From the NCBI GenBank assembly GCA_001801215.1, contig MGXA01000059.1, forward strand, positions 1-64,000: a stretch of 64,000 bases of DNA. Direction: 5' to 3'. Shown one piece after another: positions 7,173 through 58,533 of the stretch. Under the pieces are notes generated by a model that was not told where the DNA came from, searched no databases, and was given only the letters and a program-made list of their open reading frames with translations. Position 1 is the stretch's first letter, and each line of letters opens with the position of its first letter. Source of the stretch: Gallionellales bacterium RIFCSPLOWO2_02_FULL_59_110. Lineage in GTDB: Bacteria; Pseudomonadota; Gammaproteobacteria; Burkholderiales; Gallionellaceae. The translations under genes were made by a program, and so were the position numbers.

Positions 7173-7631
7173 ATGATTTTGATGATGGGCCAGTTGATTT
7201 TGATATCGCTATCTCTATTGCTGAGCGGCTTGGCGTGCGCGGCCCCAAACCACTTCTCGATCGTGATCGGTTCAGCGCTCGTATGTAACGATCAGGTGAG
7301 TGCAGATTATTTCAATGGCTATATGGAGAGATTTTTTGGTGCGCCCGCATTCAGCGCCGGAGGCGCAAACTGGTGGAAAGTGAACGAGAATATTTTTAAT
7401 TCTTCATCTGACTATGTTTTTGTCGGGGTGGGCCGGGATTTTATTGGCGCTACGTTTAAAGACAGCCCCGACAAATTGATTGCAAATGTCAGAAGCGTCA
7501 TGGGGATTGAATATAAGCAGATGGGCGCTGAAAGGTGGCGCGCACCGAGTTCCGGCGTGCTCATCAAGTATTACGACAAAAAAACACCCAGTAAGATGTA
7601 TTGCATCGGCTCGCCATCTAAAGCCTATTAG
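7173..7631 (+). CDS. Small secreted hypothetical protein
   Basis: AGGAGG RBS then MILMMGQLILISLSLLLSGLACAAP signal peptide. Confidence 0.55.
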   Translation: MILMMGQLILISLSLLLSGLACAAPNHFSIVIGSALVCNDQVSADYFNGYMERFFGAPAFSAGGANWWKVNENIFNSSSDYVFVGVGRDFIGATFKDSPDKLIANVRSVMGIEYKQMGAERWRAPSSGVLIKYYDKKTPSKMYCIGSPSKAY

Positions 7632-17270: not shown

Positions 17271-17292
17271 GAGTCAATGTGGCAAGCCGATA

Positions 17293-17382
17293 GGTAGCCC
17301 TGATGCAGGCCGAAGGCCCGAATCCGGGGAATGCTTGCGGGAGACTTCACCCGGATTCCGCTGCGCTTCATCCAGGCTACGG
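17293..17382. repeat. Dispersed inverted repeat, GTAGCCCGGATG family
   Basis: GTAGCCCTGATGCAGG...GAATCCGGGG...CCCGGATTCCGCTGCGCTTCATCCAGGCTAC; second copy at 18797-18866. Confidence 0.75.
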
Positions 17383-17388
17383 ATTTAC

Positions 17389-40262: not shown

Positions 40263-41648
40263 TCATCGCGTTGCTTCGCTGTCATCGGCGCAGTCGCATG
40301 CTTCCACCTCGTTTCTGATGCCTAGCTTTTTTATTTTTTCCCACAGGTTTTTTCGGCTAATGCCTAATTCGGCAGCGGTTTTATTCATCTGCCACTGATG
40401 TTCATTGAGCATATTCAGAATATGCAGCCTCTCGCAGGCATGCAGATAATTTGCCAGTTTGGCTGTACTCTCTGTGGCTATGCTTGCTTCATTTTGAGGG
40501 GCACAATCGAACAGGTCGCCAGTCATGAGCGTAGTTCTTGCTGTCAGGATACATGCGCGTTCGATGTGATGCTTTAATTCGCGAATGTTGCCTGGCCAGC
40601 CATACGCAAGTAGCGCTGCTTCTGCCGATGGGTGTATGGATTTTTGCTCCTCATCGTGTTGTTCTGCAAATTGCTTGAGAAACATCCCGGCAAACCACAA
40701 AATATCTTCCTTGCGCTCGTTCAACGGCGGGATCTTGAGGTGTATCACGTTGATCCGATAAAACAAATCTTCGCGGAAGGCGCCCTGCTCCGCCATTTTT
40801 TTCAGATCGCGATGCGTCGCGCAAATCAGGCGCAAATTGACCGGAATGGAGGTTTCGCCACCAACACGTACGATGCAGCGCTCCTGAATCGCTCGCAGCA
40901 GCTTGACCTGCATCGATAATGGCATATCGCCGATTTCATCCAGAAACAATGAGCCGCCGTTTGCCTGCTCAAAAAAGCCTTTCTTGGTGCGCGTGGCGCC
41001 GGTAAAAGCTCCCTTTTCATAGCCGAACAATTCAGCTTCCAGCAAACTTTCGGTAATCGCGCCGCAATTGACGGCGACGAAAGGTCTGCCGTCATGCCCC
41101 GGGGAACTGCAATGCAGCTCCTTTGCGACGACCTCCTTGCCGACGCCGGATTCTCCGGTAATTAATATGGTGTTCGCATGGCTGGAAAGGCGCGGCAGCG
41201 CATCCGCGATGCGCCGCATCTCCGCAGAAATGCCCAACACGCTCGAACGCTGGGAAATTTGATTTGCCTGCGCCGATTTCGATAGCGAACGGATTTTTTC
41301 CAGCAGCAGATCGAGATCGAACGGCTTGGTGATATAGTCTTCGGCGCCCTGTTTGAGCAGCTCGACAGCGGTATCGATCGAGCCGTATCCGGTGATGAAA
41401 ATAAAGGGCGGCAGCGGCAAACCCGTCAGTTTCAGTTGTGCAAACAGCTCCATGCCGGAAGCATCGCCCAGGCGAATATCGCTGATGGCGACGGCATATT
41501 TTTTCTTCCCTATGCTGGCCAGGGCGCTGGCGGCCGTTTGGTGCCAGTCGCAGGCAAAACCCTCCAACTCAAAGCGGTCGCACAGCGACTCGCCCATGAT
41601 CGGGTCGTCTTCAACCAGACACAGGCGTAGGGCGGTTGTCGCACTCAT
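40263..41648 (-). CDS. Sigma-54-dependent response regulator (NtrC/AioR/ArxR-like)
   Basis: REC ([31 protein letters not shown]); AAA+ GESGVGKE and GAFTGA; C-terminal Fis-type HTH. Confidence 0.93.
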
Positions 41649-43090
41649 GCGTGCATCTCCACAGGCAAGGTTACGGAAAACTGGGTTTCCCCCGGCTGGC
41701 TTTGCATGGTTATCATCCCGTTCAATTGCGATACGATTTGATAGGTCATCCATAGCCCCAAGCCATAGCCCTCTTCACGTCCTGTGGCAAAAGGCTCGAA
41801 CAGGTAATCCATCTGTTCCTGCCCGATGTGCTTGCCGTCATTTTTAACGCCGATGATCAGGCTGCCGCAATCGTAGCAAATATGACAATGCACATAATTC
41901 TCGCTTGCCTGAATGGCATTCAGCAGCAGGTTTATAAGCACTTGGCGCACCATGGTCGAGGGCAGCGGCAAAGTTTCCACGATGTCGTTTTCCCAAACGA
42001 GTTCTGCCGATTTATCGTACGCATTCGCCAGCACCAGGGTGCGTGTGTCTTCAATATCCTGCACGGTGAGGGGATGACTCTGAAGTTTGGCTTCCACCAG
42101 CAATGCGCCGATAATGTTCTTGATTTGCAGCAGGCCCCGCTCCAGCAGAGATATGGTTTTCTGCATTTGCGGATCCATGCTGCCATGCCTTTTAGCGGTG
42201 TTGATGGCATTGAGCATTCCGCCCAGCGGATTGTTGATTTCATGCGCTATGCCTGCGGTCAACCGCCCTACTGCGGCCAGGCGTTCGGAAATGAGAACCT
42301 GTTTTTCCAGGCTCTCCTTGTGTTTCAAGTCGCACAACATGCGCTTGAACGCGCCGCTCATGCGGCCGATTTCGTCGCTGGATTCATATAAGCGAAACTC
42401 CTCCGGCTCGGGCAATGATGAGCCCGCACCCACTTTCGCCATGCTGCTGGAAAGCTGGGTAAGCGGCAACGCCATGCGCCATGCCCAGAACCAGGACAGC
42501 GGCAGCAATATTGCCGCCACGATCAGCGTGGTATAAACGGAGCGCCAGGCGATGTCGTAAAAGTGCGGCAGGAACGTCGAACTGGAATAGCCCATCACGA
42601 GCGTGCCCAAAAACACTTCATCGGAAACGATCGGGGTCACCATATAGGATTTGCCGGATTGCACGATTTCCACCGCTCTGGGGGCGCCCTCGCGGTGTTT
42701 GGATATGACCGAATTCAATTGGGACAAGCGGGGATAGATGCGCGCAAATGCCGCAAGGGCGGGATGCTGTTTCGGATGCGAGGAAACATAAACCTGCTGT
42801 TGCGCATCCAGGATCAGGATTTCATCGATGACGTAACCGCTCTTTTCGCCGGACGATTGCAGGGGCGAGGCGATGGCTTCATACGCGCGCCACACATCGT
42901 CCCGCAGCAACAGCGGCTTGAGCGAATGGGTCAGAATCCGGCTCACTCGCTCGGCGTTCTGCTGCGCATCATATTTCAGATCGTGATAAATTCCGTACAT
43001 CAGCGAGCCGGAAACCGCAATGGCGGTAATGGCGATCAGCAGGCTGGTGCGGAGGGGGATTTTATAGCGTAAACTGAGGTTGCGAAACAT
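41645..43090 (-). CDS. Membrane sensor histidine kinase (AioS/ArxS-like)
   Basis: Two TM segments and periplasmic loop, HAMP, HisKA AGIAHEINNPLGGML, HATPase; 4-bp overlap with the regulator gene. Confidence 0.9.
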   Translation of the reverse strand: MFRNLSLRYKIPLRTSLLIAITAIAVSGSLMYGIYHDLKYDAQQNAERVSRILTHSLKPLLLRDDVWRAYEAIASPLQSSGEKSGYVIDEILILDAQQQVYVSSHPKQHPALAAFARIYPRLSQLNSVISKHREGAPRAVEIVQSGKSYMVTPIVSDEVFLGTLVMGYSSSTFLPHFYDIAWRSVYTTLIVAAILLPLSWFWAWRMALPLTQLSSSMAKVGAGSSLPEPEEFRLYESSDEIGRMSGAFKRMLCDLKHKESLEKQVLISERLAAVGRLTAGIAHEINNPLGGMLNAINTAKRHGSMDPQMQKTISLLERGLLQIKNIIGALLVEAKLQSHPLTVQDIEDTRTLVLANAYDKSAELVWENDIVETLPLPSTMVRQVLINLLLNAIQASENYVHCHICYDCGSLIIGVKNDGKHIGQEQMDYLFEPFATGREEGYGLGLWMTYQIVSQLNGMITMQSQPGETQFSVTLPVEMHA

Positions 43091-43091
43091 G

Positions 43092-43937
43092 CTAGTCGCC
43101 CAGCTTGCGGACCATATAGGCGACGCTGTCGAACATTTTGTCGTTGCCGGGGACGAAGCCATCCAGATTCAGCAGCGCCAGCAGTTTCCTGCCTTCTTCT
43201 TCGTTCTGCATGGCCAGCAGGGCGCTGCGCAAGGCATCCGCATCCGCCTTGGCCAAGCCTTTGCGCACCACGAATGGCGGAAAACCAAAATCCTGGGACT
43301 TCCAGACGATGCGCGTCTGCGCTGTCAGCTCAGGCCGCAATAGCACCAGGGAATCCCAGATGTAGCCGTCTACCGCACCGCCATGCGCCAATTCGGAAGC
43401 CACCGCCTCAACGACTTTGCTGTGGGACCAGGTAAAGAAAGCCTTGCCGAAAAAGGAGTTGGGCTGCTGTTTCAGAAGGCTGAGTTGATACAAAGGAACC
43501 AGATAGCCGGAGTTGGAATCGGGGTCGGAAAAGGCGAACAGCTTGCCTTTCAAATCGGCAATCGAACTGGTTTTCCGGTCTGCTGCCGGAACGATCAGAT
43601 AAGACTGGTAAACGGGTTCACCTTTATAGACGGGCACCGCCAGAAGCCGCAGATCCTTGGTGTTGGTGATGTAAGGGTAGCTGCACAACCATGCCGAATC
43701 GAGCTTGCCGTTTTGCAGCAAGGTCACGATTTCCCGGTAGTTGGCACGTTGTACGAACGATACGGGACGCTTCAGTCGGTTTTGCAGATAGTGCTGCCAT
43801 GCATGAACAAATGCCGTCTGATCCTCCAGTAACACTGCGGACAAACCTATGCGCAGCGGGGCGGGTTCGGCGGCCAGAAGATTGGCCGGGCCGCACAGGG
43901 CCCAGCATAGTAGCGCCAGTTTTATCCAATGTTGCAT
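43092..43937 (-). CDS. PhnD-type periplasmic oxyanion-binding protein (AioX/ArxX-like)
   Basis: Signal peptide; LRIGLSAVLLEDQTAFVHAWQHYLQNRLKRPVSFVQRANYREIVTLLQNGKLDSAWLCSYPYI; adjacent to HK and RR genes. Confidence 0.85.
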   Translation of the reverse strand: MQHWIKLALLCWALCGPANLLAAEPAPLRIGLSAVLLEDQTAFVHAWQHYLQNRLKRPVSFVQRANYREIVTLLQNGKLDSAWLCSYPYITNTKDLRLLAVPVYKGEPVYQSYLIVPAADRKTSSIADLKGKLFAFSDPDSNSGYLVPLYQLSLLKQQPNSFFGKAFFTWSHSKVVEAVASELAHGGAVDGYIWDSLVLLRPELTAQTRIVWKSQDFGFPPFVVRKGLAKADADALRSALLAMQNEEEGRKLLALLNLDGFVPGNDKMFDSVAYMVRKLGD

Positions 43938-44031
43938 TTGAGTTCCACGAATGATAATGATAACCAAGCGATTCAGTATAGCCGAGATTGTTTACCGTTG
44001 TGGCCGCGAATCCAAGGTGGGCAAAGGACTG

Positions 44032-44275: not shown

Positions 44276-45466
44276 ATGCCTGACCAGGAAATACAATACA
44301 AGAAGCTGCGCGAGGAGCGTCCTTTGGGCTTGCGCGAGGATGCGTGCCTCGTGCTGCGCGCTCCCCGCTATGCTACATGCCGTGCCTGCGAGACCGCATG
44401 CCCTGTGCAAGCTATCAAGGTGGGAGAGATCACGTTCGAACTGGGCGACGCCTGCATCGACTGCGGGCGTTGCGCCGCCGCCTGCCCGATGGGGGCGCTG
44501 GGCCTTCCCGGTTTCGTGGTACCGGAGGTCAAGCCAGTTCAGGGCGAGCTGTCCTCCGCTAAACCCGTCCCGGTAGAGTGCTGGAAAGTGCCCGCAGAGT
44601 CGTCTTTGCCTGATGCGGTGCGCGTCCCATGCACAGGGGGGTTGAGCACAGGTCGCTTGGTGGAGTTGGCAGCCGCTGCCGGGGATCGCCCGGTGCAGAT
44701 ATGGGATCGGGGCTGGTGCGCCGCGTGCCGCGCCGGGGGTGGCCCGGAGCACCCGGTTAGCGGGGCACTGGAAGCGGCCCGGGGCCTGTTGGCTGGAGCA
44801 GGCGTGCGCCCCGAAAAGTTGCCCGGAATAGCGTTCATGCCTCTGCCCGCGCAACTCATGCCCGCCGAGATTCCCTCTTCCACGAGCCAGCAGACTTTAA
44901 GCCGCCGTGGGTTTTTTTCGGCGTTCATGCGGGAGACGACGGCAGCCATCGACCAGGTGCGGCCGCTGGCACCCAAAAGCGAAATCCGGCGTAAACGAGG
45001 TTTCGAGCGCACCCCCATGCCTTCCCGTGAACGTGAGCGCCTACTCCTCGGGTTGAGTATTCTTGGCAAAAGCACGGACAAGCCTCCCCCCAGTGAGGCA
45101 TTCTACCGGGTGCAGATCAGCCAGGCCTGCCGCAGCCACAACATATGCGTCGGCATTTGCCCAACGGGCGCCTTGGATATTTATGAGGAAGATGCCCAAA
45201 ACGGGGTGGTTTTCGATTCTTACCTGTGTATCGGCTGCGGTCAATGCGTAACAGTTTGCCCTGAAAGCGCCATCGAGTTATCACCAAACGGTAACGACCT
45301 GATGACAATCGGGCAGCTTCGGCTGACCCGCTTCGGCGTGCAGGATTGCCCGGTGTGCGGCCAGACCTTTACCGCGCAAGGTGGCTCAGACTGCTGCCCC
45401 CAGTGCGCCAAGCGCCGCCAACTGGCCAGTTCGGCGTTTGCCAGCCTGTTCGGAAACAACCGCTGA
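44276..45466 (+). CDS. Multi-[4Fe-4S] ferredoxin-like protein (ArxB'-like)
   Basis: CRACETACPVQAI, CIDCGRCAAACPMGAL, internal SRRGFFSAF, CRSHNICVGICPTGAL, CIGCGQCVTVCPESAI, CPVCGQTF...CCPQC. Confidence 0.85.
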   Translation: MPDQEIQYKKLREERPLGLREDACLVLRAPRYATCRACETACPVQAIKVGEITFELGDACIDCGRCAAACPMGALGLPGFVVPEVKPVQGELSSAKPVPVECWKVPAESSLPDAVRVPCTGGLSTGRLVELAAAAGDRPVQIWDRGWCAACRAGGGPEHPVSGALEAARGLLAGAGVRPEKLPGIAFMPLPAQLMPAEIPSSTSQQTLSRRGFFSAFMRETTAAIDQVRPLAPKSEIRRKRGFERTPMPSRERERLLLGLSILGKSTDKPPPSEAFYRVQISQACRSHNICVGICPTGALDIYEEDAQNGVVFDSYLCIGCGQCVTVCPESAIELSPNGNDLMTIGQLRLTRFGVQDCPVCGQTFTAQGGSDCCPQCAKRRQLASSAFASLFGNNR

Positions 45467-45572: not shown

Positions 45573-48071
45573 ATGAACATCCTGAATACCCTGATTACCC
45601 GACGCCGTTTCCTGCAGGCCGCCGGGGCAACCAGCGCCGGGGCAGTGGCTCTGGGCAGCGGCAAGATCGGCGGCTTTGCCACCCTGTCTGAAGCCCAGGC
45701 AGCGGCGCCCGAGGCATCTGGCGGCGCAACGGTGACCAAGAGCATTTGCGGTCAATGTCCGGCTCGTTGCGGCATTGACATCTACAACACCAATGGCCGC
45801 GTCCACGCAATTTACGGCAACAACGACCACCCGATCGCCAATGGCAAGGGTTGCCCCAAGATGCACCTCGGCACCTACATGCTCTACGATCCGGATCGTT
45901 TCAAGGGCCCGATGAAGCGCACCAACCCCAACAAGGGGCGCAACGAGGATCCCAAGTTTGTGCCCATTTCCTGGGACGAAGCCTACAAGACGGTGGCCGA
46001 TCGCCTGAATAACCTGCGCGACAAGGGCGAATCGCACAAGTTCGGTTTGTTCTTCGGCCGCGGCTGGGGCGCTACTGACGTGGGTCTCACCATCGTGCCG
46101 TTCGGCGAACTGTACGGTTCCCCCAATGCGCCTATCGGTCACTCCTCCATCTGTTCCGATGGTTCCGTGCTGGCCAAGCAGTGCACCGACGGCAATGCTT
46201 CCTATTCCTCCTACGACTATCGTCATTCCAACTACCTGCTGATATTCGGCGCGAACTTCCTGGAAGCCTTCCGCCCCTACAACAATAACCTGCAGGTTTG
46301 GGGTTACATCCGTGGCGTGAAGACCCCCAAGACCCGCGTGACTTACGTGGATGTGCACATGAACCAGACCGCAGCAGCAGCCGACCGCGCGCTTCTCGTC
46401 AAGCCCGGCACCGACGGCGCTCTGGCGCTGGCCATCGCGCATGTAATTCTCACCGAGGGCCTGTGGGAAAAGAGCTTCGTTGGCGACTTCAAGGACGGTG
46501 CCAACCTGTTCAAGACCGGCCAGACGCTCGACCCGGCCAGCTTCAACGAAAAATGGGTCAAGGGCCTGATCGAGTGGTGGAACGCGGAACTCAAGGATCG
46601 CACCCCGAAATGGGCCGCAGGAGTGACCACCATTGCCGAGGATCTAATCACCCAGACGGCGCGCGAGTTTGGCTCCACACGCCCGGCGATCGCCCTGTTC
46701 GAGCGCGGCGCTCACGTGCACAGCAACGGCGTGTTGAACGGCATGGCGATCCACTCGCTGAATGCGCTGGTCGGCTCCCTGTTCGCCGAAGGCGGCCTGG
46801 GTTACCAGATGGGGCCTTCCTATGGTCCGTCGCCTGCCAATGCCGCCGACTACATGGACGACTACGCCAAGAACGGCCCGCACAAGAAAATGCCGCGCAT
46901 CGACCTGAAAGGGCACGAAGACGGCTATCTGATGGCCAAAAACATGATCCAGGAAGTGGGCAAAAACCACCTGTCCGGCAAGGCCGGCTACAAGCTCGAT
47001 ACGGCATTGTTCTACATGACCAACCCGGTCTTCTCGACCCCCAATGCGAAAAACGAGTGGGAAGAAGCCGTGAAGACGATGTTTGTCATCGATACTTCGC
47101 CGTTCCCGAGCGAAGTCGCCATGATGGCCGACATCATCCTGCCGGACAACACCTACATCGAACGCTATCAGGATGCGCCAACCTATCCGTTCCAGGGCTT
47201 CCCTCTGGCCCAGCTGCGCGTACCGGCGATCAAACCCCTGTACGATACCCGAACCTTTGGCGATTCGTTGATCGCGATCGGCAGCCTCATCAAGGGACCG
47301 ACGAGCGAGTATTTCAAGAAGCTGGAAAGCGCCGAGAATATCGTGCGCCACCTGGCCAAGGGCTTCGAAAAAGACCCGGGCGACAACGGCGTCAAGGATT
47401 TCGAGACCTGGAAGGCCAAGGGCTGCTGGTTCAAGAAACCGTACGTCTACCGCCAGGTGCGCGGCGAGTTCCTGAAGTGGGACGGCAAGGGCTACAACAA
47501 TCCGATGAGCGCCGAAGACGTCAAGAAGGATCTGCTCATGACAGATTCGGGCAAGTTCGAGTTTGTGTCTTCCTACATGGAGCACAAGAAGGACTGGGTA
47601 CTCGCCAAGACCGGTCGCGATCCCGTCAAGTACAACATGCCGCACTGGGAAGAGCCCAAGTACACCGGCGGGGGCGACGTGCACTTCATCTCCCCGAAGA
47701 CCGCGATGCATGCGGAAGGGCGCGGCGGCAACATCCCGCACGCCATTACCCTGCTCCAGCCTGCTGCCGGCGGCAACAAGGGCGCTCTGGCGGAAATTCA
47801 TCCGAGTTTGGCCAGCGCCAAGGGCATCAAGGATGGCGGCCGCATCAAGATCAAGTCTGCCGTGGGCGAAATCATCGCAACCGCGCGCGTCACCGAGCTG
47901 ACCCGTCCTGACACCATCGTGCTGCCGTTCGAGCATGGTCACTGGGCATGGGGCCGCTGGGCCAAGGCGCTGGGCGGTTCGCACGTGGACGAAATCGTGC
48001 CGCAACAGTCGGATCGCATTTCCGGTATGTGCAACTACTACACCGGCAAGGTGACGGTAGAGCGCGCATAA
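45573..48071 (+). CDS. arxA: Tat-exported molybdopterin oxidoreductase, candidate anaerobic arsenite oxidase catalytic subunit ArxA
   Basis: Tat signal TRRRFLQAAGAT; [4Fe-4S] motif CGQCPARCGIDIY...GKGCPK; FGRGWG (46053-46070); HSSICSDGS Mo-ligand region; operon partners and divergent XSR genes. Confidence 0.75.
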   Translation: MNILNTLITRRRFLQAAGATSAGAVALGSGKIGGFATLSEAQAAAPEASGGATVTKSICGQCPARCGIDIYNTNGRVHAIYGNNDHPIANGKGCPKMHLGTYMLYDPDRFKGPMKRTNPNKGRNEDPKFVPISWDEAYKTVADRLNNLRDKGESHKFGLFFGRGWGATDVGLTIVPFGELYGSPNAPIGHSSICSDGSVLAKQCTDGNASYSSYDYRHSNYLLIFGANFLEAFRPYNNNLQVWGYIRGVKTPKTRVTYVDVHMNQTAAAADRALLVKPGTDGALALAIAHVILTEGLWEKSFVGDFKDGANLFKTGQTLDPASFNEKWVKGLIEWWNAELKDRTPKWAAGVTTIAEDLITQTAREFGSTRPAIALFERGAHVHSNGVLNGMAIHSLNALVGSLFAEGGLGYQMGPSYGPSPANAADYMDDYAKNGPHKKMPRIDLKGHEDGYLMAKNMIQEVGKNHLSGKAGYKLDTALFYMTNPVFSTPNAKNEWEEAVKTMFVIDTSPFPSEVAMMADIILPDNTYIERYQDAPTYPFQGFPLAQLRVPAIKPLYDTRTFGDSLIAIGSLIKGPTSEYFKKLESAENIVRHLAKGFEKDPGDNGVKDFETWKAKGCWFKKPYVYRQVRGEFLKWDGKGYNNPMSAEDVKKDLLMTDSGKFEFVSSYMEHKKDWVLAKTGRDPVKYNMPHWEEPKYTGGGDVHFISPKTAMHAEGRGGNIPHAITLLQPAAGGNKGALAEIHPSLASAKGIKDGGRIKIKSAVGEIIATARVTELTRPDTIVLPFEHGHWAWGRWAKALGGSHVDEIVPQQSDRISGMCNYYTGKVTVERA

Positions 48072-48103: not shown

Positions 48104-48868
48104 ATGGCTAAATGGGGAATGGTAATTGACCTGGAAAAATGCACCGGGTGTCAGGCTTGCAGCACCGCCTGCCAGATGGAGAACAACCGCCTGCCCGGCG
48201 AAAACTACCAGGATGTGTTGTATTACACGGAAGGCAAGCAACCTACGCCGACCCTGAAATGGTTTCCGCGGCCTTGCATGCATTGCGAGGAACCTTCGTG
48301 TTTGCATGTGTGCCCGACCAAGGCCACTTTCAAAACCGCGGATGGGGTGGTGCTCATCGACTGGAACAAGTGTATCGGCTGCAAGTTCTGCATGATCGCC
48401 TGCCCGTACGGTGTGCGTTTCTACACCGACGAGAAGCCGCTCATCGAACCCAATATCAAGGATGTCTTCAAGGGATCGGGCGACCTGTCCTGGAATCCGC
48501 CGTATAAGGGCCCGCAGCAGGACAACGCACACGGCGTCGGCATCCAGCCGAATGGCGTGGTGTCCAAGTGCACCTTCTGCTACCACAAAATCAGCAAGGC
48601 GCCTGCCGGCACTGCCAATCTGACCAACGAGGACGAGGCAACACGCGAGTTCACGCCGGCCTGTGTGCGCACTTGTGCGCCCACAGCCCGCTACTTCGGC
48701 GACCTCGACAACCCCAATTCGGAAGTCAGCCGCATGATTTCGTCGAAGAAGGGCACTCGCCTGCTGGAGCACACGGGCAACAAGCCCCAGGTGTATTACG
48801 TGACTGGTTCCGGCGCGGGCGGCGGGGCAGCGGTGCCCATGGGCCGCAACGGCATCAACAAGGTATAA
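48104..48868 (+). CDS. arxB: [4Fe-4S] electron-transfer subunit (ArxB-like)
   Basis: CTGCQACSTACQ-type cysteine clusters (CTGCQACSTACQMENN, CMHCEEPSCLHVCPTKA, CIGCKFCMIACPYGVR, CTFCYHK). Confidence 0.8.
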   Translation: MAKWGMVIDLEKCTGCQACSTACQMENNRLPGENYQDVLYYTEGKQPTPTLKWFPRPCMHCEEPSCLHVCPTKATFKTADGVVLIDWNKCIGCKFCMIACPYGVRFYTDEKPLIEPNIKDVFKGSGDLSWNPPYKGPQQDNAHGVGIQPNGVVSKCTFCYHKISKAPAGTANLTNEDEATREFTPACVRTCAPTARYFGDLDNPNSEVSRMISSKKGTRLLEHTGNKPQVYYVTGSGAGGGAAVPMGRNGINKV

Positions 48869-48880
48869 GGAGAAAAAACT

Positions 48881-50014
48881 ATGACTACGCAAGTTGAAGC
48901 AAAAGGGCCGGTCGGTATGGCCATGATGGCGGGCGTTGCCGGGCTGGTGATCAGTTTGGGCATTGTCTTCAGTAATCTCATGTCCAGCGGTCATGCCTCC
49001 TTTAACACCGGCAGCAACGGTGTGACCTGGGGGCTGCCCGTGGTGAACTACGTGTTCTTCGTACTCACCTCGACGGGATTGACCTTCGTGGCCTCGCTGG
49101 CCATGGTGTTCGGGTTCAAGGAGTTCTACCCGATCGCCAAGCGCTGTGTCTGGCTGGCGGTGGTGACGCTGATCGCAGGTTTCGCCTCGCTGGCGCTGGA
49201 AATCGGCCACCCGTTCCGCATGCTGTGGGCGATTCCCCTGTCGTTCCAGTATCTGTCGCCGCTTAACTGGATGGGCGTGTTCTACCTGGCCTATCTGGTG
49301 CTGCTGCTGCTCAAATTCCAGAAGGTGAACGCCAACGACTGGGACAGCAGCGGTTCGCGCACTCTGGGCATTGCCTCCTTCGTCGCCGTGGTTATCGCCC
49401 ACGGCACGCTGGGCGGCGTGTTCGGCGCGATGATCATGCGTCCGATGTGGTATGGCCCTCTGGTGCCCATTTACTTCCTCCTCACGGCGGCAGTATCGGG
49501 TGCGGCTTTTGCGGTGCTGATTACCTACCTGACCTACGGCAGCGCCGGCAACATGCCAGAGAAGGTGCGCAATCTCATGGCCGGCTCCATGTCCAAGGTG
49601 TTCGCCGCCGTTCTGGCGGTAGTCATCCTGGCGGTCGTTTCGCGCACTGTGATCGGCCTGTGGACCAACGCCGACGGTATGCAGGTGTGGGATCACGTCG
49701 TGGCTTCGCCCTGGTACTGGATCGAAATCGTTCTGATGGTGGCGGCATTCCTGATGCTGGTTAACGGCAGTTCGCCGATGTTGCCCGCCCTCATGGTGAT
49801 CGTCTCGCTGTTCATCGGGCGCTACGAGTTCATCATTTCCGGCCAGTTGGTTCCGCTGTTCAAGGGCTCCTGGGTGCCGGGGCTGATTCAGTACACACCC
49901 TCGCTCACCGAGTGGATGACGACTCTGGTGGCGTTTTCCATCGCTCTCGCTGGATGGGCGGTAGGCGAGAAAATGCTGAATCTTGCCGCAGCACCAGAGG
50001 GGAAGAATTCGTAA
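48881..50014 (+). CDS. arxC: NrfD/PsrC-family membrane anchor, quinol-interacting (ArxC-like)
   Basis: NrfD-family multi-TM protein following the FeS subunit. Confidence 0.8.
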   Translation: MTTQVEAKGPVGMAMMAGVAGLVISLGIVFSNLMSSGHASFNTGSNGVTWGLPVVNYVFFVLTSTGLTFVASLAMVFGFKEFYPIAKRCVWLAVVTLIAGFASLALEIGHPFRMLWAIPLSFQYLSPLNWMGVFYLAYLVLLLLKFQKVNANDWDSSGSRTLGIASFVAVVIAHGTLGGVFGAMIMRPMWYGPLVPIYFLLTAAVSGAAFAVLITYLTYGSAGNMPEKVRNLMAGSMSKVFAAVLAVVILAVVSRTVIGLWTNADGMQVWDHVVASPWYWIEIVLMVAAFLMLVNGSSPMLPALMVIVSLFIGRYEFIISGQLVPLFKGSWVPGLIQYTPSLTEWMTTLVAFSIALAGWAVGEKMLNLAAAPEGKNS

Positions 50015-50043
50015 GATACACCTCCCAGTGTCAAACGAAGCTG

Positions 50044-50079
50044 CCGGATAAAGGGGAAACCCTTTATCCGGTTTTTTTT
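50044..50079 (+). terminator. Strong intrinsic terminator between arxC-like and chaperone genes
   Basis: CCGGATAAAGGG-GAAA-CCCTTTATCCGG then TTTTTTTT. Confidence 0.92.
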
Positions 50080-50113: not shown

Positions 50114-50977
50114 ATGAATAAGCCTGATTTATCACTGCAAGACAAGTCCGATTTCTACCTGATGCTGGCGCGAGCTTTCATGGCGCCGATGGACCAGAAC
50201 ACTTATCAGGCCATAGTTGAATTTCTGGCCGACGACCTGGCCGAATTGGATGTGGAGCTAGGTTACGGGTTGGGGCCGCACATAGCAGCCCTGCGCGAGC
50301 AGTTGGCAAAAGTCCCCAGCCAGGAAGAATTGTTGATCATTTACAGCAGAATTTTTTTGCAACCTCCCCGCGAGGCCCAGATCAACCCCGGCATGTATCT
50401 GGATGGCGCCCTGATGGGCGGCACGGTTGCCGAAATGGAAGCGTTCTACCGGAAATTCAATGTGATGCGCGGCGAGCATTTCAGGGATTTGCCGGATCAT
50501 GTTGCGATCCAACTGGAATTTGTTGCTTACCTCTATGCGCGCGCCGCCGAGGCTCGCGAAATGGGCAGGCACGATAATGAAGCAGAAGCGGGTGCGGGAC
50601 ATTTCCTGTTTCAGTTCGTAAATCGCTGGATGCCGAAATTCCACGCCGACCTGGAAAAAGTAACCCGCGAACTGGATGAAATCATGCTGCCGGCCAATCC
50701 CTATCTGCCCCTAGCCAGCATCCTGGGGGATGCAGCAGCCCGGGATGCGCTTGCCAATCCGGAATGGCTGCCGGTAAAAAAACGGGTCGATAAGGCCATA
50801 GATAAGGCTAGGGCCGACTATGCCGCGCGCGGTATCACGGAAGAGGATATGGCCGAAATGGAACGCAAGCTCAAGGAAAAGGGTCTCAGCGTCGATCACC
50901 TGAAAATACCGGCCGAGAACCGTGATGCGGTTATGGGCTGGACAGCGAAAACGCCGCCCGATCCACGGCGCAAGTGA
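50114..50977 (+). CDS. arxD: TorD-family molybdoenzyme chaperone (ArxD-like)
   Basis: All-helical TorD-like: SDFYLMLARAFMAPMD, EELLIIYSRIFLQPP, DLPDHVAIQLEFVAYLY, HFLFQFVNRWMPKF. Confidence 0.75.
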   Translation: MNKPDLSLQDKSDFYLMLARAFMAPMDQNTYQAIVEFLADDLAELDVELGYGLGPHIAALREQLAKVPSQEELLIIYSRIFLQPPREAQINPGMYLDGALMGGTVAEMEAFYRKFNVMRGEHFRDLPDHVAIQLEFVAYLYARAAEAREMGRHDNEAEAGAGHFLFQFVNRWMPKFHADLEKVTRELDEIMLPANPYLPLASILGDAAARDALANPEWLPVKKRVDKAIDKARADYAARGITEEDMAEMERKLKEKGLSVDHLKIPAENRDAVMGWTAKTPPDPRRK

Positions 50978-50980
50978 AAC

Positions 50981-51550
50981 ATGGGGTGGTCGGGCGGCTT
51001 GATTATGCCCCTGTTGTTAAGTCTGGCTTGGGCGGGCACGGCTCACGCCGATATTGACACCTCCGAGTATGAGCTGAAATCCTCCATACGCTCGGAAAAG
51101 GAGCGCGAGCAATTCAGGGCGCAGTTGGAAAAGAGCAGGGTGGAGGAGGTCGAGCGCGAGCGCGCGCAAGCCGAGGCTGAGGCGCGGCGGCATGCGGAAG
51201 AAATGGAGCGGTTGGCGGCGCGACCCTATCCGGTCAGGCTCCTTGAGGCGCGCTGCACCGTCTGCCATGCGGCGACCAACTATGAAAACCAAAATCACAC
51301 TTGGTTGGGCTGGTGGCTGGTGGTGTCGCGCATGGAATACTTTAGCAAGGTCGCATTAAATTCAGGCGAACGGGGCGTGATTGTGGCTCACCTGACTGAA
51401 ACAAGGCCCGGAGACACGCGGATCGTGTTGATGGAATATGGTGCGCTGGCCGTTTCGCTACTAGGCGCAGCACTGCTTGTGTGGCAGGGGGTGCGCCGCA
51501 TCCGGCAGAAACGACAAAGGAACAGTTATGCGGGCGATCAGGGGCAGTAA
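50981..51550 (+). CDS. Membrane-anchored monohaem c-type cytochrome with coiled-coil segment
   Basis: Signal peptide, charged coiled-coil (REQFRAQLEKSRVEEVERERAQAEAEARRHAEEMERL), single CTVCH, C-terminal TM. Confidence 0.7.
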   Translation: MGWSGGLIMPLLLSLAWAGTAHADIDTSEYELKSSIRSEKEREQFRAQLEKSRVEEVERERAQAEAEARRHAEEMERLAARPYPVRLLEARCTVCHAATNYENQNHTWLGWWLVVSRMEYFSKVALNSGERGVIVAHLTETRPGDTRIVLMEYGALAVSLLGAALLVWQGVRRIRQKRQRNSYAGDQGQ

Positions 51551-51962
51551 GGTGACATTAAAGTGCCGGGTAACGGACAGGGATCAGAATGCCCTGCTCG
51601 ACGACGGCAGCAAACCCATGTCTTTCGTGGTGGGCATGGGCCAGGTCGTCGCTGGCCTGGAAAAAGCCATAGAGGGTAAAGAGGCGGGGTATCGAAACCA
51701 ATTTACGCTGGATGCAGAAGATGCCTACGGCCTGTACCGCCCCGAGCTGGTGTTCGAGGCAGTACGCGAAAACCTGCCGCCCGGTCTCGATATACAACCC
51801 GGCATGAACCTCTCCCCAAGCGGCAGCGATGGCCGATTCCAGTTGAAGGTACTTTCCCTAACGGAACAGGGCGCCATGCTGGACGGCAACCATCATCTGG
51901 CGGGAAAGCGGCTGGATTTCGAAGTGGAGGTAATTGATGTACAAATGGCCGGCACTCACTAG
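51528..51962 (+). CDS. FKBP-type peptidyl-prolyl isomerase, SlyD-like
   Basis: KVTLKCRVTDRDQNALLDDGSKPMSFVVGMGQVVAGLEKAIEGKEAGYRNQFTLDAEDAYGLY. Confidence 0.85.
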   Translation: MRAIRGSKVTLKCRVTDRDQNALLDDGSKPMSFVVGMGQVVAGLEKAIEGKEAGYRNQFTLDAEDAYGLYRPELVFEAVRENLPPGLDIQPGMNLSPSGSDGRFQLKVLSLTEQGAMLDGNHHLAGKRLDFEVEVIDVQMAGTH

Positions 51963-52206
51963 CGCGGTTCTTCTGGTATGGCTGACCGGTTCGGGCATTG
52001 CTCTGGCCGAGGACAATCCTCCACCTTCCGGCCAAACCGTCGCAGATAACAGCACGGGCCAGACAATCCGCACAGACGCGGTAGAAAAGCTGCTGGCTCC
52101 CAACGACAAGACCGGCAGGAACGCGTCTCGTCCCCCGGCCCGCCAGACTGCCTTTCGCTTTCTCGATGAAAAGAATTTGGGGCTGGGTTGCTCCAAGGGA
52201 GAATGA
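51937..52206 (+). CDS. Small secreted protein at the end of the oxidoreductase locus
   Basis: Signal peptide MYKWPALTSAVLLVWLTGSGIALA; overlaps the PPIase gene; lone mature Cys near the C-terminus (GLGCSKGE). Confidence 0.6.
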   Translation: MYKWPALTSAVLLVWLTGSGIALAEDNPPPSGQTVADNSTGQTIRTDAVEKLLAPNDKTGRNASRPPARQTAFRFLDEKNLGLGCSKGE

Positions 52207-52294: not shown

Positions 52295-53383
52295 ATGCCT
52301 TCCGCTTTTTCCCTCGCAAGCACATTGCTGCGCCGCGAAATCCTTGATCTGCATGCCTACCATGTGCCGGACAGCACGGGCTATATCAAGCTGGATGCGA
52401 TGGAGAACCCCTATCCCGTACCATCGGCACTGCGCGGCGAGATTGCCGGAGTAGTCGCGGCCGCAGCCATTAACCGTTATCCCGATCCCGGTGCCGCCTC
52501 GCTCAAGGAAAAAATCCGCTGCACACTCGACCTGCCGGACGATATGGGAGTATTGCTTGGCAATGGCTCGGATGAGCTGATCCAGTTGCTGGCGCTGGCG
52601 CTGAATAAACCCGGCGCAACTTTGCTGGGCTTGGAACCGTCGTTCGTAATGTATAAGATGATCGCGACGTTTACCGGGATGCGTTATGTGGGCGTACCGC
52701 TGGCGGCGGATTTCTCACTGGATTTGCCGACGACCCTCACAGCGATCCGGCGCGAGAAACCCGCGCTGGTTTTTATCGCCTATCCGAATAATCCCACCGG
52801 CAATTTGTTTTCGGCACCGGATGTGATGCAGATCATCGAAACGGCACCGGGGCTGGTGGTGGTGGATGAGGCCTATTACGCCTTTGCCGCCGACAGTTTT
52901 ATCCCGCGCCTGGCGGACTATCCGAATCTGCTGGTGATGCGCACCTTTTCCAAGCTCGGCATGGCCGGGCTGCGCTTGGGTTTTCTGGCGGGCAGGACGG
53001 CATGGCTGGAACAGTTGGAAAAGCTGCGCTTACCGTATAATGTCGGCGTATTGCCTCAGGTGGTTGCCGAAAAATTATTGGGGCACCACAAAATACTGCT
53101 GCAGCAGGCAGAGCAGATCAAGCTGGATCGCGCCGCGCTGCACCGCCAGTTGGGCGCAATTGCCGGGGTGCAGGTTTACCCCAGCGAGGCAAATTTTCTG
53201 TTGTTCCGCGCGGCGCGCGCTACAGAGGTGTTCGACGGCCTGAAACGGCGTGGTGTGCTGATCAAGAATCTGAATGGCGGGCATCCGATGCTGAATAACT
53301 GCTTGCGTGTGACAGTCGGCACACCGGATGAATGCGCGAAATTCGTTGCTGCATTGCTGGATACCCTTAACCAACTCGCATAA
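52295..53383 (+). CDS. hisC: Histidinol-phosphate aminotransferase
   Basis: [54 protein letters not shown]. Confidence 0.95.
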
Positions 53384-53393
53384 GGCGATAATC

Positions 53394-53981
53394 ATGCGTA
53401 GCGCGAATGTTTCACGCAGCACGTTGGAAACCCAAATCACCGTCGAGTTGAACCTGGACGGCAGGGGCAAGACAAAATTCGATACCGGGCTGCCGTTTCT
53501 CGATCACATGCTCGACCAGATCGCCCGGCATGGACTGCTGGACATTAGCGTTCTCGCCAAAGGCGATTTGCACATCGATGCGCATCACACCGTGGAGGAC
53601 ATCGGCATCACGCTCGGGCAGGCCTTCAACCAGGCCATCGGCGACAAGAAAGGCTTGCGCCGTTATGGCCATGCCTACGTGCCGCTGGACGAATCCCTGT
53701 CGCGCGCGGTGCTGGACATTTCCGGACGACCAGGCCTGGTGTTCAATTGCGAATTCGTGCGCGACAGCATCGGCGAATTCGATGTGGATCTGATCAACGA
53801 GTTTTTCCAGGGCTTCGTCAATCACGCGTTGGTGACTTTGCATATCGACAATCTGGCAGGCAACAATGCCCACCATCAGGCCGAAACTATTTTCAAGGCA
53901 TTTGGCCGCGCGTTGCGCATGGCGCTGGAGCTTGATCCGCGCATGGCCGGCGTAATGCCTTCCACCAAGGGAACGCTATAA
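53394..53981 (+). CDS. hisB: Imidazoleglycerol-phosphate dehydratase
   Basis: [55 protein letters not shown]. Confidence 0.96.
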
Positions 53982-53987
53982 GTTGAA

Positions 53988-54620
53988 ATGGTTGATGTTG
54001 CGGTTGTAGATTACGGGATGGGCAACTTGCGCTCGGTCGAACAAGCCCTGCGCAAAGTGTCGCCAGATGCCGAAATCGTCGTCAGCGACGATCCCGGAGT
54101 GATCGCAGAAGCCGGGCGCGTGGTATTTCCGGGCCAGGGGGCAATGCCGGACTGCATGCGCGAACTGGATGCGCGCGGCTTGCGCGACGCCGTGCTGATG
54201 GCCGCGCGCGATAAGCCATTTCTCGGCATCTGCATCGGCCTACAAATGCTGTTTGAGCACAGCTCCGAGGGCAATGTGGCGGGGCTGGGCGTTTTGCGCG
54301 GCGAAGTGGTGCGCTTTGCCGGTGACATGAGCGATGCGCAGGGCAGCAGACTCAAGGTGCCGCACATGGGCTGGAACCGGGTTCGCCATGGTGATCACGT
54401 GTTGTGGAACGGCATCGAGCAAAATTCGCGTTTTTACTTCGTGCATAGCTATTATGTGTTGCCGCAGGACCCATCCTTGGTGCAGGGCACCAGCGACTAT
54501 CCGCAGCCTTTTGTCTGCGCGATGTCGCGTGACAATCTGTTTGCGGTGCAATTTCACCCGGAAAAAAGCCAAACAGCAGGGCTGAAGCTGCTGCAAAATT
54601 TCGTGCATTGGAACCCTTAA
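53988..54620 (+). CDS. hisH: Imidazole glycerol phosphate synthase subunit HisH
   Basis: VVDYGMGNLRSVEQAL; FLGICIGLQMLFEHSSEG; VPHMGWN; VQFHPEKSQ. Confidence 0.96.
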   Translation: MVDVAVVDYGMGNLRSVEQALRKVSPDAEIVVSDDPGVIAEAGRVVFPGQGAMPDCMRELDARGLRDAVLMAARDKPFLGICIGLQMLFEHSSEGNVAGLGVLRGEVVRFAGDMSDAQGSRLKVPHMGWNRVRHGDHVLWNGIEQNSRFYFVHSYYVLPQDPSLVQGTSDYPQPFVCAMSRDNLFAVQFHPEKSQTAGLKLLQNFVHWNP

Positions 54621-54636
54621 CTTTTGACGTACTGCC

Positions 54637-55389
54637 ATGCTTATTATTCCCGCGATTGATTTGAAAGACGGTCATTGTGTGCGCCTCAAACAGGGCGTGA
54701 TGGAAGATGCCACGGTATTTTCCGAAGATCCCGCCGCCATGGCGCAGCATTGGCTGGAGCAGGGCGCGCGCCGCCTGCACCTGGTGGACCTGAACGGCGC
54801 TTTTGCCGGCAAGCCGAAGAACGAGGCTGCGGTGCGCAGCATCATCGAGGCGATGGGCGGCAGCGACGTGCCGGTGCAACTGGGTGGCGGTATCCGCGAC
54901 CTGGAAACCATCGAACGCTACCTCGACATCGGCGTAACCTACGTCATCATCGGCACGGCGGCGGTTAAGGTGCCGGGATTCCTGCACGAGGCGTGCGATG
55001 CCTTTCCCGGCCACATCATGGTCGGGCTGGACGCCAAGGGCGGCAAGGTTGCCGTGGACGGCTGGTCTAAGCTGACCGGCCACGACGTGGCGGATCTGGC
55101 GCAACGTTTCGAAGGCTACGGCGTCGAAGCGATTATTTACACCGACATCGGTCGCGACGGCATGTTATCCGGCGTAAACATTCCGGCCACAGTTGAATTG
55201 GCCAGCCCGCTGCATGTACCGGTGATTGCCAGCGGCGGCATCACTAACCTGGACGATGTGCGCGCGCTGTGCGCGGTGCAGCCCGAGGGTATCACTGGGG
55301 CGATCACCGGTCGCGCGATTTACGAGGGCACGCTGAATTTCCGCGCAGCACAAGCGCTGGCTGATGAATTGACAGGTGCAAAGCAATAA
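54637..55389 (+). CDS. hisA: ProFAR isomerase HisA
   Basis: [49 protein letters not shown]. Confidence 0.96.
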
Positions 55390-55392
55390 CTC

Positions 55393-56151
55393 ATGCTGGC
55401 GAAGCGTATTATTCCCTGTCTCGATGTCACTGCAGGGCGCGTGGTCAAAGGCGTCAGCTTCGTCGAATTGCGCGATGCCGGCGACCCGGTGGAAATTGCG
55501 CGCCGCTATGACGAGCAGGGCGCGGACGAACTGACTTTTCTCGACATCACCGCCAGCTCGGACGACCGCGGGATCATTTTCCGCATCATCGAACAGGTCG
55601 CCTCGCAGGTGTTCATTCCGCTGACTGTGGGCGGCGGGGTGCGCGAGGTCGGCGACGTACGGAACCTGCTGAATGCCGGCGCGGACAAGGTCAGCATCAA
55701 CACCTCCGCCGTGCTGAATCCGCAACTGGTTGCGGATGCCGCGGGGCGTTACGGTTCGCAGTGCATCGTGGTGGCGATCGATGCCAAACAGACCGGAGCG
55801 AACCGCTGGGAAGTGTTCACTCATGGCGGACGCAGGTCGACAGGGCTGGATGCCGTGGAGTGGGCGAAAAAAATGCAGCAGTTGGGCGCGGGTGAAATCC
55901 TGCTGACCAGCATGGATCGGGACGGACAAAAAAACGGCTTTGATCTGGCCCTGACGCGCGCGGTAACGGATGCACTGGAAATCCCGGTTATTGCCAGCGG
56001 CGGCGTGGGTAACCTGCAGCACCTTGTTGACGGCGTGAAACTCGGCGGCGCTGATGCGGTACTGGCTGCGAGCATTTTCCACTTCGGCGAATACACGGTG
56101 CGGCAGGCCAAAGAGTTTATGGCTCAACACAATATCGAGGTGCGGCTATGA
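55393..56151 (+). CDS. hisF: Imidazole glycerol phosphate synthase subunit HisF
   Basis: [53 protein letters not shown]. Confidence 0.96.
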
Positions 56152-56537
56152 GCGAGGCATGGTTAAACAAGGTGAACTGGTCGGGGGACGGCCTGGTGCC
56201 TGCCATCGCGCAGGACGCGGCGACGGGGCGGGTACTGATGGTCGCGTGGATGGATCGCGATGCCTTGAGGCTTACATGGCAAAAAGGCGAGGCAGTGTAT
56301 TGGTCGCGTTCGCGCAAAAAACTGTGGCACAAGGGCGAGGAGTCGGGACATATTCAGAATGTAAAGGAAATCCGGCTGGATTGCGATAGCGATGTCATAC
56401 TTCTGCAAGTTGAACAACAGGGCGGCATTGCATGTCACACCGGACGCGCAAGCTGCTTTTTCAGCCGCCTGGAAAAAGGGCAATGGGTAGAAACGGATGT
56501 TGTGTTGAAATCTCCCGACGAGATTTATAAAAAATGA
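56148..56537 (+). CDS. hisI: Phosphoribosyl-AMP cyclohydrolase
   Basis: [54 protein letters not shown]. Confidence 0.96.
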
Positions 56538-56857
56538 ACAAGGATATACTGCTGCGACTGGCGGAAACGCTCCAAACACGCAAACACGCATCGCCGGACA
56601 GCTCTTACGTCGCCAAGCTGTTCAGCAAGGGCGAAGACGCGATTCTGAAAAAGATCGGCGAGGAAGCGACTGAGGTCATACTGGCCAGCAAAGGGGGCGA
56701 CAAAACTCATCTTGTTTATGAAACCGCCGATTTGTGGTTTCATTGCATGGTACTGCTGGCGAAGCACGACCTGAGCGCGGACGATGTATTGGACGAGCTG
56801 GCGCGCCGCGAAGGCTTGTCGGGCATTGCCGAGAAGGAATGCAGGGAAAAGGATTGA
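56534..56857 (+). CDS. hisE: Phosphoribosyl-ATP pyrophosphatase
   Basis: [46 protein letters not shown]. Confidence 0.95.
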
Positions 56858-56859
56858 GC

Positions 56860-57207
56860 ATGGATAACTGCATTTTTTGTAAAATTACGCGCGGCGAAAT
56901 TCCTTGTCGCAAGGTGTATGAGGACGAAGAAATCCTGGCGTTCCACGACATCAACCCGGTGGCACCGGTGCATTTCATGCTGGTCCCAAAGCTGCATCTG
57001 GCTTCACTGGTGGAGGCAGAGGGTGCACATGCCGCACTGCTCGGCAGGATGCTGTTGCTCGCTCCCAGGCTTGCAAAAGAACAAGGCCTGGAAAACGGTT
57101 TCCGCACCGTGATCAATACCGGCAAGGGAGGCGGGCAGGAGGTATTTCATTTGCACATTCACATTATCGGTGGCGGCAATATTCCACCCATGGTGCGGCA
57201 CAATTAA
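56860..57207 (+). CDS. hinT: HIT family protein (HinT-like)
   Basis: CIFCKITRGEIPCRKVYEDEEILAFHDINPVAPVHFMLVPKLH; HLHIHIIGG. Confidence 0.93.
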   Translation: MDNCIFCKITRGEIPCRKVYEDEEILAFHDINPVAPVHFMLVPKLHLASLVEAEGAHAALLGRMLLLAPRLAKEQGLENGFRTVINTGKGGGQEVFHLHIHIIGGGNIPPMVRHN

Positions 57208-57225
57208 TTTTAAGGAGAAACTAAA

Positions 57226-57456
57226 ATGGGTTCATTCAGTATCTGGCATTGGTTGATTGTATTGCTGGTCGTTATTTTGATATTTGGCACCAAGAAACTG
57301 CGCAACATCGGCAGCGACTTGGGCGGTGCTGTGAAAAACTTTAAGGAAGGGGTGCGCGACGACGAACCCAAGCAGGCCCAGCAGGATGGCCAGGCCATCG
57401 AAGGCGAAGTAACTTCAAGAACGCAGACGAAGGACAAGTCTAATACGCATGTTTGA
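57226..57456 (+). CDS. tatA: Twin-arginine translocase subunit TatA
   Basis: [42 protein letters not shown]. Confidence 0.95.
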
Positions 57457-57805
57457 CTTCGCATTCACTGAACTGATTGTTATTTTGCTGGTGGCGCTGG
57501 TCGTCATCGGCCCGGAACGGCTGCCGAAAGTTGCGCGTACGGCTGGGCATTTGTGGGGCCGGGTGCAACGCTATGTGCATAGCGTCAAGAACGATATTGC
57601 AAACGACATCGCCATTGAAGAAGTGAATCAGCTGCGCGGCACAATCCGCAATGAAGTCAGCGCCATCGAGAAAGCATCAAATGAAGCTAGGCTTGCTCTG
57701 GAGCAAAAAATACTAGATGCGCAGACCGGCAAATCTTCCGCAACACCCGACGAACAGAAGCCGTCGGTTACACAACCTTCCACTACGCCAGGCAAGCCAG
57801 TTTGA
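57449..57805 (+). CDS. tatB: Twin-arginine translocase subunit TatB
   Basis: [38 protein letters not shown]. Confidence 0.95.
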
Positions 57806-58533
57806 TGGGCAAAAATGAAAGATTTATCGCGCACCTGATCGAATTGCGCTCGCGCTTGCTGAGAAGCGCAGTGGCTTTGCTGTTGGTATTTATTTGTCTG
57901 TTTCCATGGGCGTCCGACCTGTACGCCATCCTGGCTGAACCGCTGCTGGCGAAACTGCCCAAAGGCGGACAGATGGTCGCAACCGATGTCACTACGCCGT
58001 TTTTTGTGCCGCTCAAGGTGGCGATGATGGCCGCCTTGCTGATTGCGCTGCCTTACATCCTTTATCAGATATGGAGATTTGTCGCGCCGGGCCTGTATGC
58101 GCACGAGAAGCGCCTGGTCATGCCGCTTATATTCGCCAGCACCCTGCTGTTTTTCAGTGGCATGGCATTCGCCTACTTTGCTGTGTTTCCGGTGGTGTTC
58201 GGTTTCATCACTGCCTCGGCCCCGCAGGGTGTGGCGGTAATGACCGACATCGACAAATATCTCAGCTTCGTGCTTGGAATGTTCATGGCATTCGGGGTAA
58301 CTTTTCAGGTACCGGTGGCAGTGATACTTCTGGTGCGCATGGGTATTGTCAGCGTTGCGAAACTCCGGGAAAGCCGCTCATACGTGATCGTCGGCGCGTT
58401 TATCGTCGGTGCGATTTTCACGCCGCCGGACGTGGTATCGCAATTCATGCTGGCGATCCCGCTGTGGCTGCTATATGAGGCAGGCATCGTGGTTGCCGCG
58501 TGGATGGGCAAAGTCAAGGCAAACGAGGCGTAA
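57802..58533 (+). CDS. tatC: Twin-arginine translocase subunit TatC
   Basis: FIAHLIELRSRLLRSAVALLLVF; FVAPGLYAHEKRLVMPL; SRSYVIVGAFIVGAIFTPPDVVSQ-type motif. Confidence 0.95.
   Translation: MMGKNERFIAHLIELRSRLLRSAVALLLVFICLFPWASDLYAILAEPLLAKLPKGGQMVATDVTTPFFVPLKVAMMAALLIALPYILYQIWRFVAPGLYAHEKRLVMPLIFASTLLFFSGMAFAYFAVFPVVFGFITASAPQGVAVMTDIDKYLSFVLGMFMAFGVTFQVPVAVILLVRMGIVSVAKLRESRSYVIVGAFIVGAIFTPPDVVSQFMLAIPLWLLYEAGIVVAAWMGKVKANEA

Follow-up and report, generated by a model that had tools for sequence, protein, structure and literature searches.

An arx arsenite-oxidase cluster extended by genes for a predicted membrane-tethered cytochrome c, a SlyD-type FKBP and a small exported protein

In the AioAB arsenite oxidase, cytochrome c serves as the acceptor. 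The arx cluster has been described as arxB2ABCD together with arxXSR, in groups 1-3, with a Tat-exported ArxA, an NrfD-type ArxC, a TorD-like ArxD and divergent arxXSR genes; extra genes appear in the main text of that survey as "hypothetical" only, and no cluster cytochrome or prolyl isomerase is named there (PMC6549141). SorB, the haem subunit of the molybdenum sulfite dehydrogenase SorA, stays permanently bound to its partner and wraps an extended segment around it (PMC4760952). The chaperone SlyD of E. coli binds Tat signals via the pocket and the negative surface of its IF domain (PMC11198818).

We analysed a stretch of 64,000 nucleotides from a Gallionellales genome (contig MGXA01000059.1, positions 1 to 64,000), hereafter called the window. 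Open reading frames and matches to Pfam and NCBIfam identified a complete arxRSX/arxB2ABCD arsenite-oxidase cluster (Table 1), in which arxA, arxB, arxC, arxD, arxB2 and arxXSR are all present in the described order and with all the features listed above. ArxA of the window is 56-82% identical to the ArxA of 28 GTDB loci and 57% identical to that of Sulfuricella pSCD. Compared with the known cluster, the window adds three genes at its end, coding for a cytochrome, an FKBP and a small exported protein. The first-pass annotation had placed these genes directly 3' of the chaperone gene, overlapping one another and outside the core arx set. The coordinates bear this out: the cytochrome gene starts 3 nt behind arxD (stop at 50977, start at 50981), overlaps the FKBP gene by 23 nt, and the latter overlaps the gene of the small protein by 26 nt. 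Good ribosome sites precede the FKBP gene (aaaggaac) and the small-protein gene (tggagg). Other genomes have homologues in the corresponding position, which shows that the three tail genes are real. They also lie outside the core set as described, and a search limited to the open-access literature found no name for arx-linked tail genes. The locus is thus an extended variant of the known arx system with apparently unnamed tail genes. An Rfam search gave no match within the operon. A his operon with hinT and tatABC adjoins the arx tail (window 52295-58533); the his-hinT-tatABC order is probably the usual betaproteobacterial one, with arx inserted beside it. In several genomes moaA, a gene of molybdenum cofactor synthesis, lies directly or closely 3' of the arx tail (L193:13553-14524, L015 and L016).

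Table 1. Features of the arx locus in the window, with the insertion-bearing ArxA genes of other loci in the last line.
Feature	Position	Strand	Description and evidence
arxR, sigma-54 response regulator	40263..41753	-	ORF reading; true start possibly later
arxS, HAMP sensor histidine kinase	41645..43162	-	ORF reading and Sulfuricella gene order
arxX, PhnD-type periplasmic sensor-binding protein	43092..43967	-	PF12974 6e-59
arxB2, polyferredoxin	44276..45466	+	family profile
arxA, molybdopterin arsenite oxidase catalytic subunit	45573..48071	+	Tat signal RRRFLQ
arxB, four-cluster ferredoxin-like subunit	48104..48868	+	family profiles
arxC, NrfD/PsrC-type quinone-interacting membrane subunit	48881..50014	+	PF03916 7e-23
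Terminator-like hairpin, arxC-arxD gap	50043..50072	+	13-bp stem, GAAA loop, T-run (predicted)
arxD, TorD/NarJ-like redox-enzyme chaperone	50114..50977	+	PF02613 (Nitrate_red_del) 9e-19
Cytochrome, provisionally "ArxE"	50981..51550	+	189 aa; ORF, PF09098, alignment of 14, AlphaFold2 model, hydropathy
SlyD-type FKBP, provisionally "ArxF"	51528..51962	+	144 aa; signature RPELVFEAVRENLP
Small exported protein	51937..52206	+	89 aa; signal peptide, Pro/Ala/Lys-rich linker, C-terminal FLDEKNLGLGC-SKGE
Insertion-bearing ArxA	L003:1544-4333; L039:10010-12796; L098-L100, L102, L104		

The cytochrome contains a single haem motif, CTVCH, in a haem domain that belongs to PF09098 (Dehyd-heme_bind; E=1e-6, 28.9 bits for a cut-off of 25.2); some cytochromes of the arx family do not reach this cut-off. 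Its layout comprises a signal peptide (~1-24), a charged helix (~39-80), the haem domain (83-141), a membrane helix (~148-172) and a basic cytoplasmic tail. From hydropathy and the model, the predicted topology is that of a membrane-tethered cytochrome c, with a cleavable signal peptide, a C-terminal transmembrane helix and a basic inside tail, and these three elements are kept across the alignment. Eight residues are invariant in the 14 aligned cytochromes: C92, C95 and H96 of the CxxCH motif, W111, R117, M118, L138 and E152. M118 is the presumed distal haem ligand. Behind the signal peptide lies a D-[IV]-D-x-x-[ED]-Y stretch (D-I-D-x-x-E-Y in the window), whose Tyr is kept in 12/12 of the cytochromes having this region. 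The AlphaFold2 model (mean pLDDT 87.6) showed residues 39-80 as a single helix (pLDDT ~94-98) and a C-terminal helix of 41 residues (146-186) that includes the membrane segment. Charged residues make up 50% of positions 35-84. The first-pass annotation had called this protein coiled-coil. No convincing heptad register was found in residues 39-80, so that "charged helical spacer" describes the long modelled helix better. Across the family the spacer is a charged helix in most cytochromes, is Pro-rich in L005/L006 (identical with L041/L042) and is absent in L003/L007.

We compared the cytochrome with proteins of known structure. Profile matches were obtained with the alpha subunit of quinohaemoprotein amine dehydrogenase, QHNDH (1jju, 3e-10; another structure, 1e-9) and with SorB (2blf_B, 2e-5), and the only sensible Foldseek matches, with weak E-values (0.02-0.14), were 1jmx, 1jju and 2blf_B. 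Class-wide, profile matches were detected in 31 of 369 genomes, the window's own included, and in ten of these genomes the cytochrome-like gene directly adjoins that of a SorA homologue, identified as such by Pfam in L107. The sequences thus point to haem subunits of another molybdoenzyme as the nearest relatives outside arx, and these SorA-adjoining, SorB-type proteins are the main ground on which we read the Arx cytochrome as an electron acceptor. A reading as a common soluble cytochrome was rejected, the class-wide matches proving to be no orthologues but either dihaem proteins or proteins of the SorB type encoded next to SorA. Small SorB-like cytochromes adjoin SorA-type sulfite dehydrogenases in L106-L108, L110-L112 and L115-L117; the one in L107 also stands beside a SoeABC-like molybdoenzyme cluster, whose anchor is of the DmsC type.

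The Arx cytochrome shares with SorB of SorAB the monohaem fold and profile, a gene adjoining those of a molybdoenzyme and an extended segment outside the haem core. It differs in its C-terminal membrane anchor, in its longer spacer, in an RM motif in place of KM or DM, and in its presumed partner, an enzyme of the DMSO-reductase family instead of one with the sulfite-oxidase fold. It scored 13.9 bits with the SorB equivalog NF052246, whose cut-off is 93, and its neighbour is arxD behind arxABC, not SorA. By fold and profile, the protein is therefore best described as SorB-like and not as a SorB. Haem domain I of QHNDH alpha (PF09098) is the best sequence match, including GW..V.RM, but the Arx protein has a membrane anchor, only one haem and none of the other QHNDH alpha domains; with 189 aa and 25 bits it is far from TIGR03908, for which ~500 aa, two haems and >274 bits are expected. 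A transfer of arsenite electrons to cytochrome c would be an outcome analogous to that of AioAB, although the small subunit of AioAB is unrelated and Arx also has an NrfD quinone subunit.

The distribution of the cytochrome was followed first in 61 relatives and then in 398 genomes of the order. A match was found in 8/398 genomes; in six of these, all arx genomes, the gene lies behind arxD. The other two matches were discarded: both proteins are long, have two CxxCH motifs and are of the alpha type of amine dehydrogenase. In the same sample 14 ArxA genes were counted (54-100% identity; a fifteenth match, at 39%, was left out), and the cytochrome occurred in 6/14 of the arxA genomes and in 0/384 of the others (Fisher p = 6e-10, a value that ignores kinship among the genomes). 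The notion that the tail genes usually lie elsewhere, with no link to molybdoenzymes, thus found no support: in the order sample the cytochrome was restricted to arx genomes, and neither the FKBP subfamily nor the small protein was encountered other than beside arx. A plasmid search gave no homologue of the cytochrome or of the small protein. Since the cytochrome occurs almost only beside the arsenite oxidase, it probably takes part in the bacterial uptake of electrons from arsenic, as a component that has been overlooked.

We also read the neighbours of 28 ArxA loci from GTDB, together with loci from the genome searches. Seventeen arx loci have the cytochrome behind arxD, one of these copies being frameshifted; among the carriers is the culturable Magnetospirillum sp. 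SS-4 (L035). The clade of 13 that contains the window in the ArxA tree has it in 11/12 decidable loci; L015, of the same clade, is without the cytochrome and has kept the FKBP. Outside this clade, the carriers are a Halorhodospira MAG (L028) and three more lineages (L003/L039, L041/L042 and L105 with L040). It was absent, both from the cluster and genome-wide, in Ectothiorhodospira, the Sulfuricella-type clade and others, while Thioalkalivibrio has no cytochrome in its arx cluster and only weak matches away from it. Its absence from many arx clusters, including L015, indicates that it is not essential for Arx. No other sampled genome of the window's genus carries it, as expected if the cluster moves between lineages. 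Degenerate-looking copies were seen in L010, L011 and L018. In the L039 island (genome G185), a frameshifted copy lies behind arxD and an intact one directly after arxXSR (6866-7261 and 17017-17427). All three tail genes occur together in three sampled loci only (the window, L014 and L017), and they are therefore not one fixed unit.

The hairpin predicted between arxC and arxD in the window (z -5.4) has counterparts at the same site in most loci of the clade, with z from -1.9 to -6.2; their sequences differ and some are without a T-run. Besides the window, hairpins at this site were found in L011, L012, L013, L014, L016, L017, L028 and L035. L015, where the gap is short and the cytochrome absent, has none. 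The arxB2-arxA gaps mostly gave a weaker hairpin score than the arxC-arxD gaps, L017 being an exception. The position of the hairpin groups the tail genes with arxD, and its recurrence suggests differential expression of structural and accessory genes, the tail genes probably being made in smaller amount than arxB2ABC. With such a lower predicted amount, a shuttle or an assembly factor fits better than a 1:1 subunit.

The second tail gene had been annotated as an FKBP-type prolyl isomerase apparently without signal peptide, and indeed no hydrophobic leader is present. The protein is of the SlyD type (PF00254, 1e-8; PDB SlyD match over the full length, 1e-27), matches the structures 2k8i, 2kfw and 3cgm over their full length, and has an FKBP domain with an inserted IF domain of 57 aa. 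It scored 66.8 bits with the SlyD equivalog PRK10737, against 174 required, and ends in ..VQMAGTH, without the His-rich nickel-binding tail of the housekeeping copies. A separate housekeeping SlyD, 31% identical to the arx FKBP, is encoded in the same genome. The arx-linked FKBPs share the signature RPELVFEAVRENLP (RLVFTAPRENLP in L028), which is the same in copies of beta- and gammaproteobacteria; a DNA signature for VFEAVREN gave an exact match in the window genome only, among 398 genomes. In trees, the arx FKBPs came out together or nearly so, apart from the housekeeping set, with weak support; a single origin is likewise weakly supported (67/61 without one long branch, 2 changes with it).

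Besides the missing metal tail and the linkage to arx, these FKBPs differ from SlyD in that Tyr13 is replaced by Cys in the betaproteobacterial forms, that Phe84 and Phe96 of the IF pocket are replaced by Leu, and that the charge of the IF domain is low (-1 to -3, and -7 in L028, versus -4 to -14 in housekeeping SlyDs). The FKBP of the window is an additional SlyD paralogue that is linked to arx and whose chaperone domain has changed. The altered pocket and charge suggest that its client is probably narrower or different, which weakens the simplest maturation model, binding of a Tat signal peptide. That the FKBP binds the Tat signal of ArxA as E. coli SlyD does is a possible but doubtful reading, compatible with our preferred explanation of the cytochrome. 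Binding of Tat signal peptides by the IF domain of E. coli SlyD (PMC11198818) and the RRRFLQ signal of ArxA are in its favour; the Leu residues at 84 and 96, the mostly lost negative surface and the presence of ArxD, which already supplies the usual signal-binding chaperone, weigh against it. The roles put forward in the first-pass annotation, maturation factor for the FKBP and electron-transfer partner for the cytochrome, are inferences.

The third gene had been taken to encode a small secreted protein, and hydropathy showed a signal-peptide-like leader. No match was found in Pfam, NCBIfam or PHROGs. Four members were collected (window, L014, L016 and L017), each directly behind the cytochrome or the FKBP gene and each overlapping the preceding gene. 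Apart from Met1, invariance is limited to P28, A48, P67 and LGLGC at the C-terminus. When 19 arx genomes were searched with a profile, the significant matches were these four arx-linked copies alone. A copy elsewhere in the genome was rejected: of 10 DNA matches of the LGLGC type, the arx match is the sole one with the end of an ORF no more than a few residues away. As judged from its sequence, the protein thus represents a new four-member family ending in LGLGC. We guess that it would act as a disordered, flexible exported linker with LGLGC as a C-terminal docking peptide. In L020 (after 11665) and L021 (after 5502), a different small exported protein of low complexity (AKQDETEGMAGMSG...) is encoded directly behind the cytochrome.

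The explanation that we prefer, with confidence and doubt about evenly balanced, is that the SorB-like tethered cytochrome provides an exit to cytochrome c beside the quinone exit of ArxC, with the FKBP aiding assembly. In this model the extended arx operon would have an accessory module made up of arxD and the three tail genes, set apart from arxB2ABC by the hairpin, which would probably lower the expression of this module. The cytochrome would be exported by the Sec pathway and would carry one His/Met-ligated haem, held by the C-terminal helix close to ArxC, on the side of the membrane that faces the periplasm, while its N-terminal arm would probably dock on ArxA/B. ArxA/ArxB, or else quinol at ArxC, would supply the cytochrome with electrons, which would pass on to the cytochrome-c pool in the manner of SorB with SorA. 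The cytoplasmic FKBP, as a dedicated paralogue, would assist the folding of an Arx subunit, or hold it, ahead of its export by Tat; pre-ArxA is the most likely candidate. Several observations count against this explanation: the cytochrome is dispensable (absent in Ectothiorhodospira, Thioalkalivibrio, Sulfuricella and L015), ArxC already gives a quinone exit, the hairpin upstream of arxD argues against a 1:1 structural subunit, the Foldseek E-values are weak, and the charge loss and Phe to Leu changes of the FKBP speak against ordinary Tat-signal binding.

Some of these observations would suit a different reading, in our opinion rather unlikely, in which all three tail genes serve enzyme assembly and not electron flow. 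The cytochrome would then be a factor of low abundance, linked to redox or haem, that works in assembly or quality control together with ArxD and the FKBP, in agreement with the module shared with the chaperone gene arxD behind a recurrent hairpin, the overlap with the gene of a folding helper and the many arx clusters that do without the cytochrome. However, its nearest relatives (SorB and the haem domain of QHNDH) accept electrons, and its invariant residues mark a redox haem site. The electron-accepting character of SorB-type relatives also disfavours a cytochrome working in reverse, by which electrons of the cytochrome/quinol pool would feed Arx as an arsenate reductase, or acting as a redox sensor to ArxXSR. 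We consider this quite improbable, even though Arx is reported to be bidirectional in vitro, as cited in PMC6620896, and though in L039 it is the copy directly after arxXSR that is intact and the arxD-side copy that is frameshifted; in other loci no link of the cytochrome to sensor genes was seen. Finally, the patchy distribution, with all three genes in the window, L014 and L017 only, and the degenerate-looking copies of L010, L011 and L018 could suggest chance passengers on mobile arx islands with no role in Arx. This is very unlikely, as place, order and overlapping frames are kept in divergent genomes, arx-negative genomes of the order have no cytochrome, and haem, anchor and signature residues are conserved.

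An extension of the electron-exit explanation comes from ArxA itself. An insertion of ~100 residues, ~40% charged, is present near residue 320 in the ArxA clade of L003, L039 and L098-L104, L103 excepted, and is missing from the ArxA of the window. A model of an insertion-bearing ArxA was unreliable overall (pLDDT 38.5), the insertion alone being helical at ~75-86. Loci with this insertion have either a cytochrome without the charged helix (L003, L039) or none. We tentatively propose, as an idea that we hold to be rather unlikely, that freshwater betaproteobacterial Arx is a dual-exit enzyme with ArxC/quinone on one side and the SorB-like cytochrome on the other, the tethered cytochrome taking arsenite electrons directly to cytochrome c. 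The charged helical arm needed for docking would sit on the cytochrome in the clade of the window; in the other clade it would be the ArxA insertion, with the cytochrome armless or missing. The pattern amounts to one evolutionary contrast and thus serves as a lead instead of a test. For strain M52, a long insertion in ArxA has been reported without a function (PMC6549141), and in M52-like bacteria this unexplained element would gain a possible role.

In the standard picture, electrons leave Arx through ArxC and quinone only. A tethered cytochrome that is conserved and specific to arx suggests another route for the electrons. With the FKBP, a molybdoenzyme exported by Tat would have a second folding helper dedicated to it, and the tail genes provide added markers for the low-salt arx type of groundwater and lakes.
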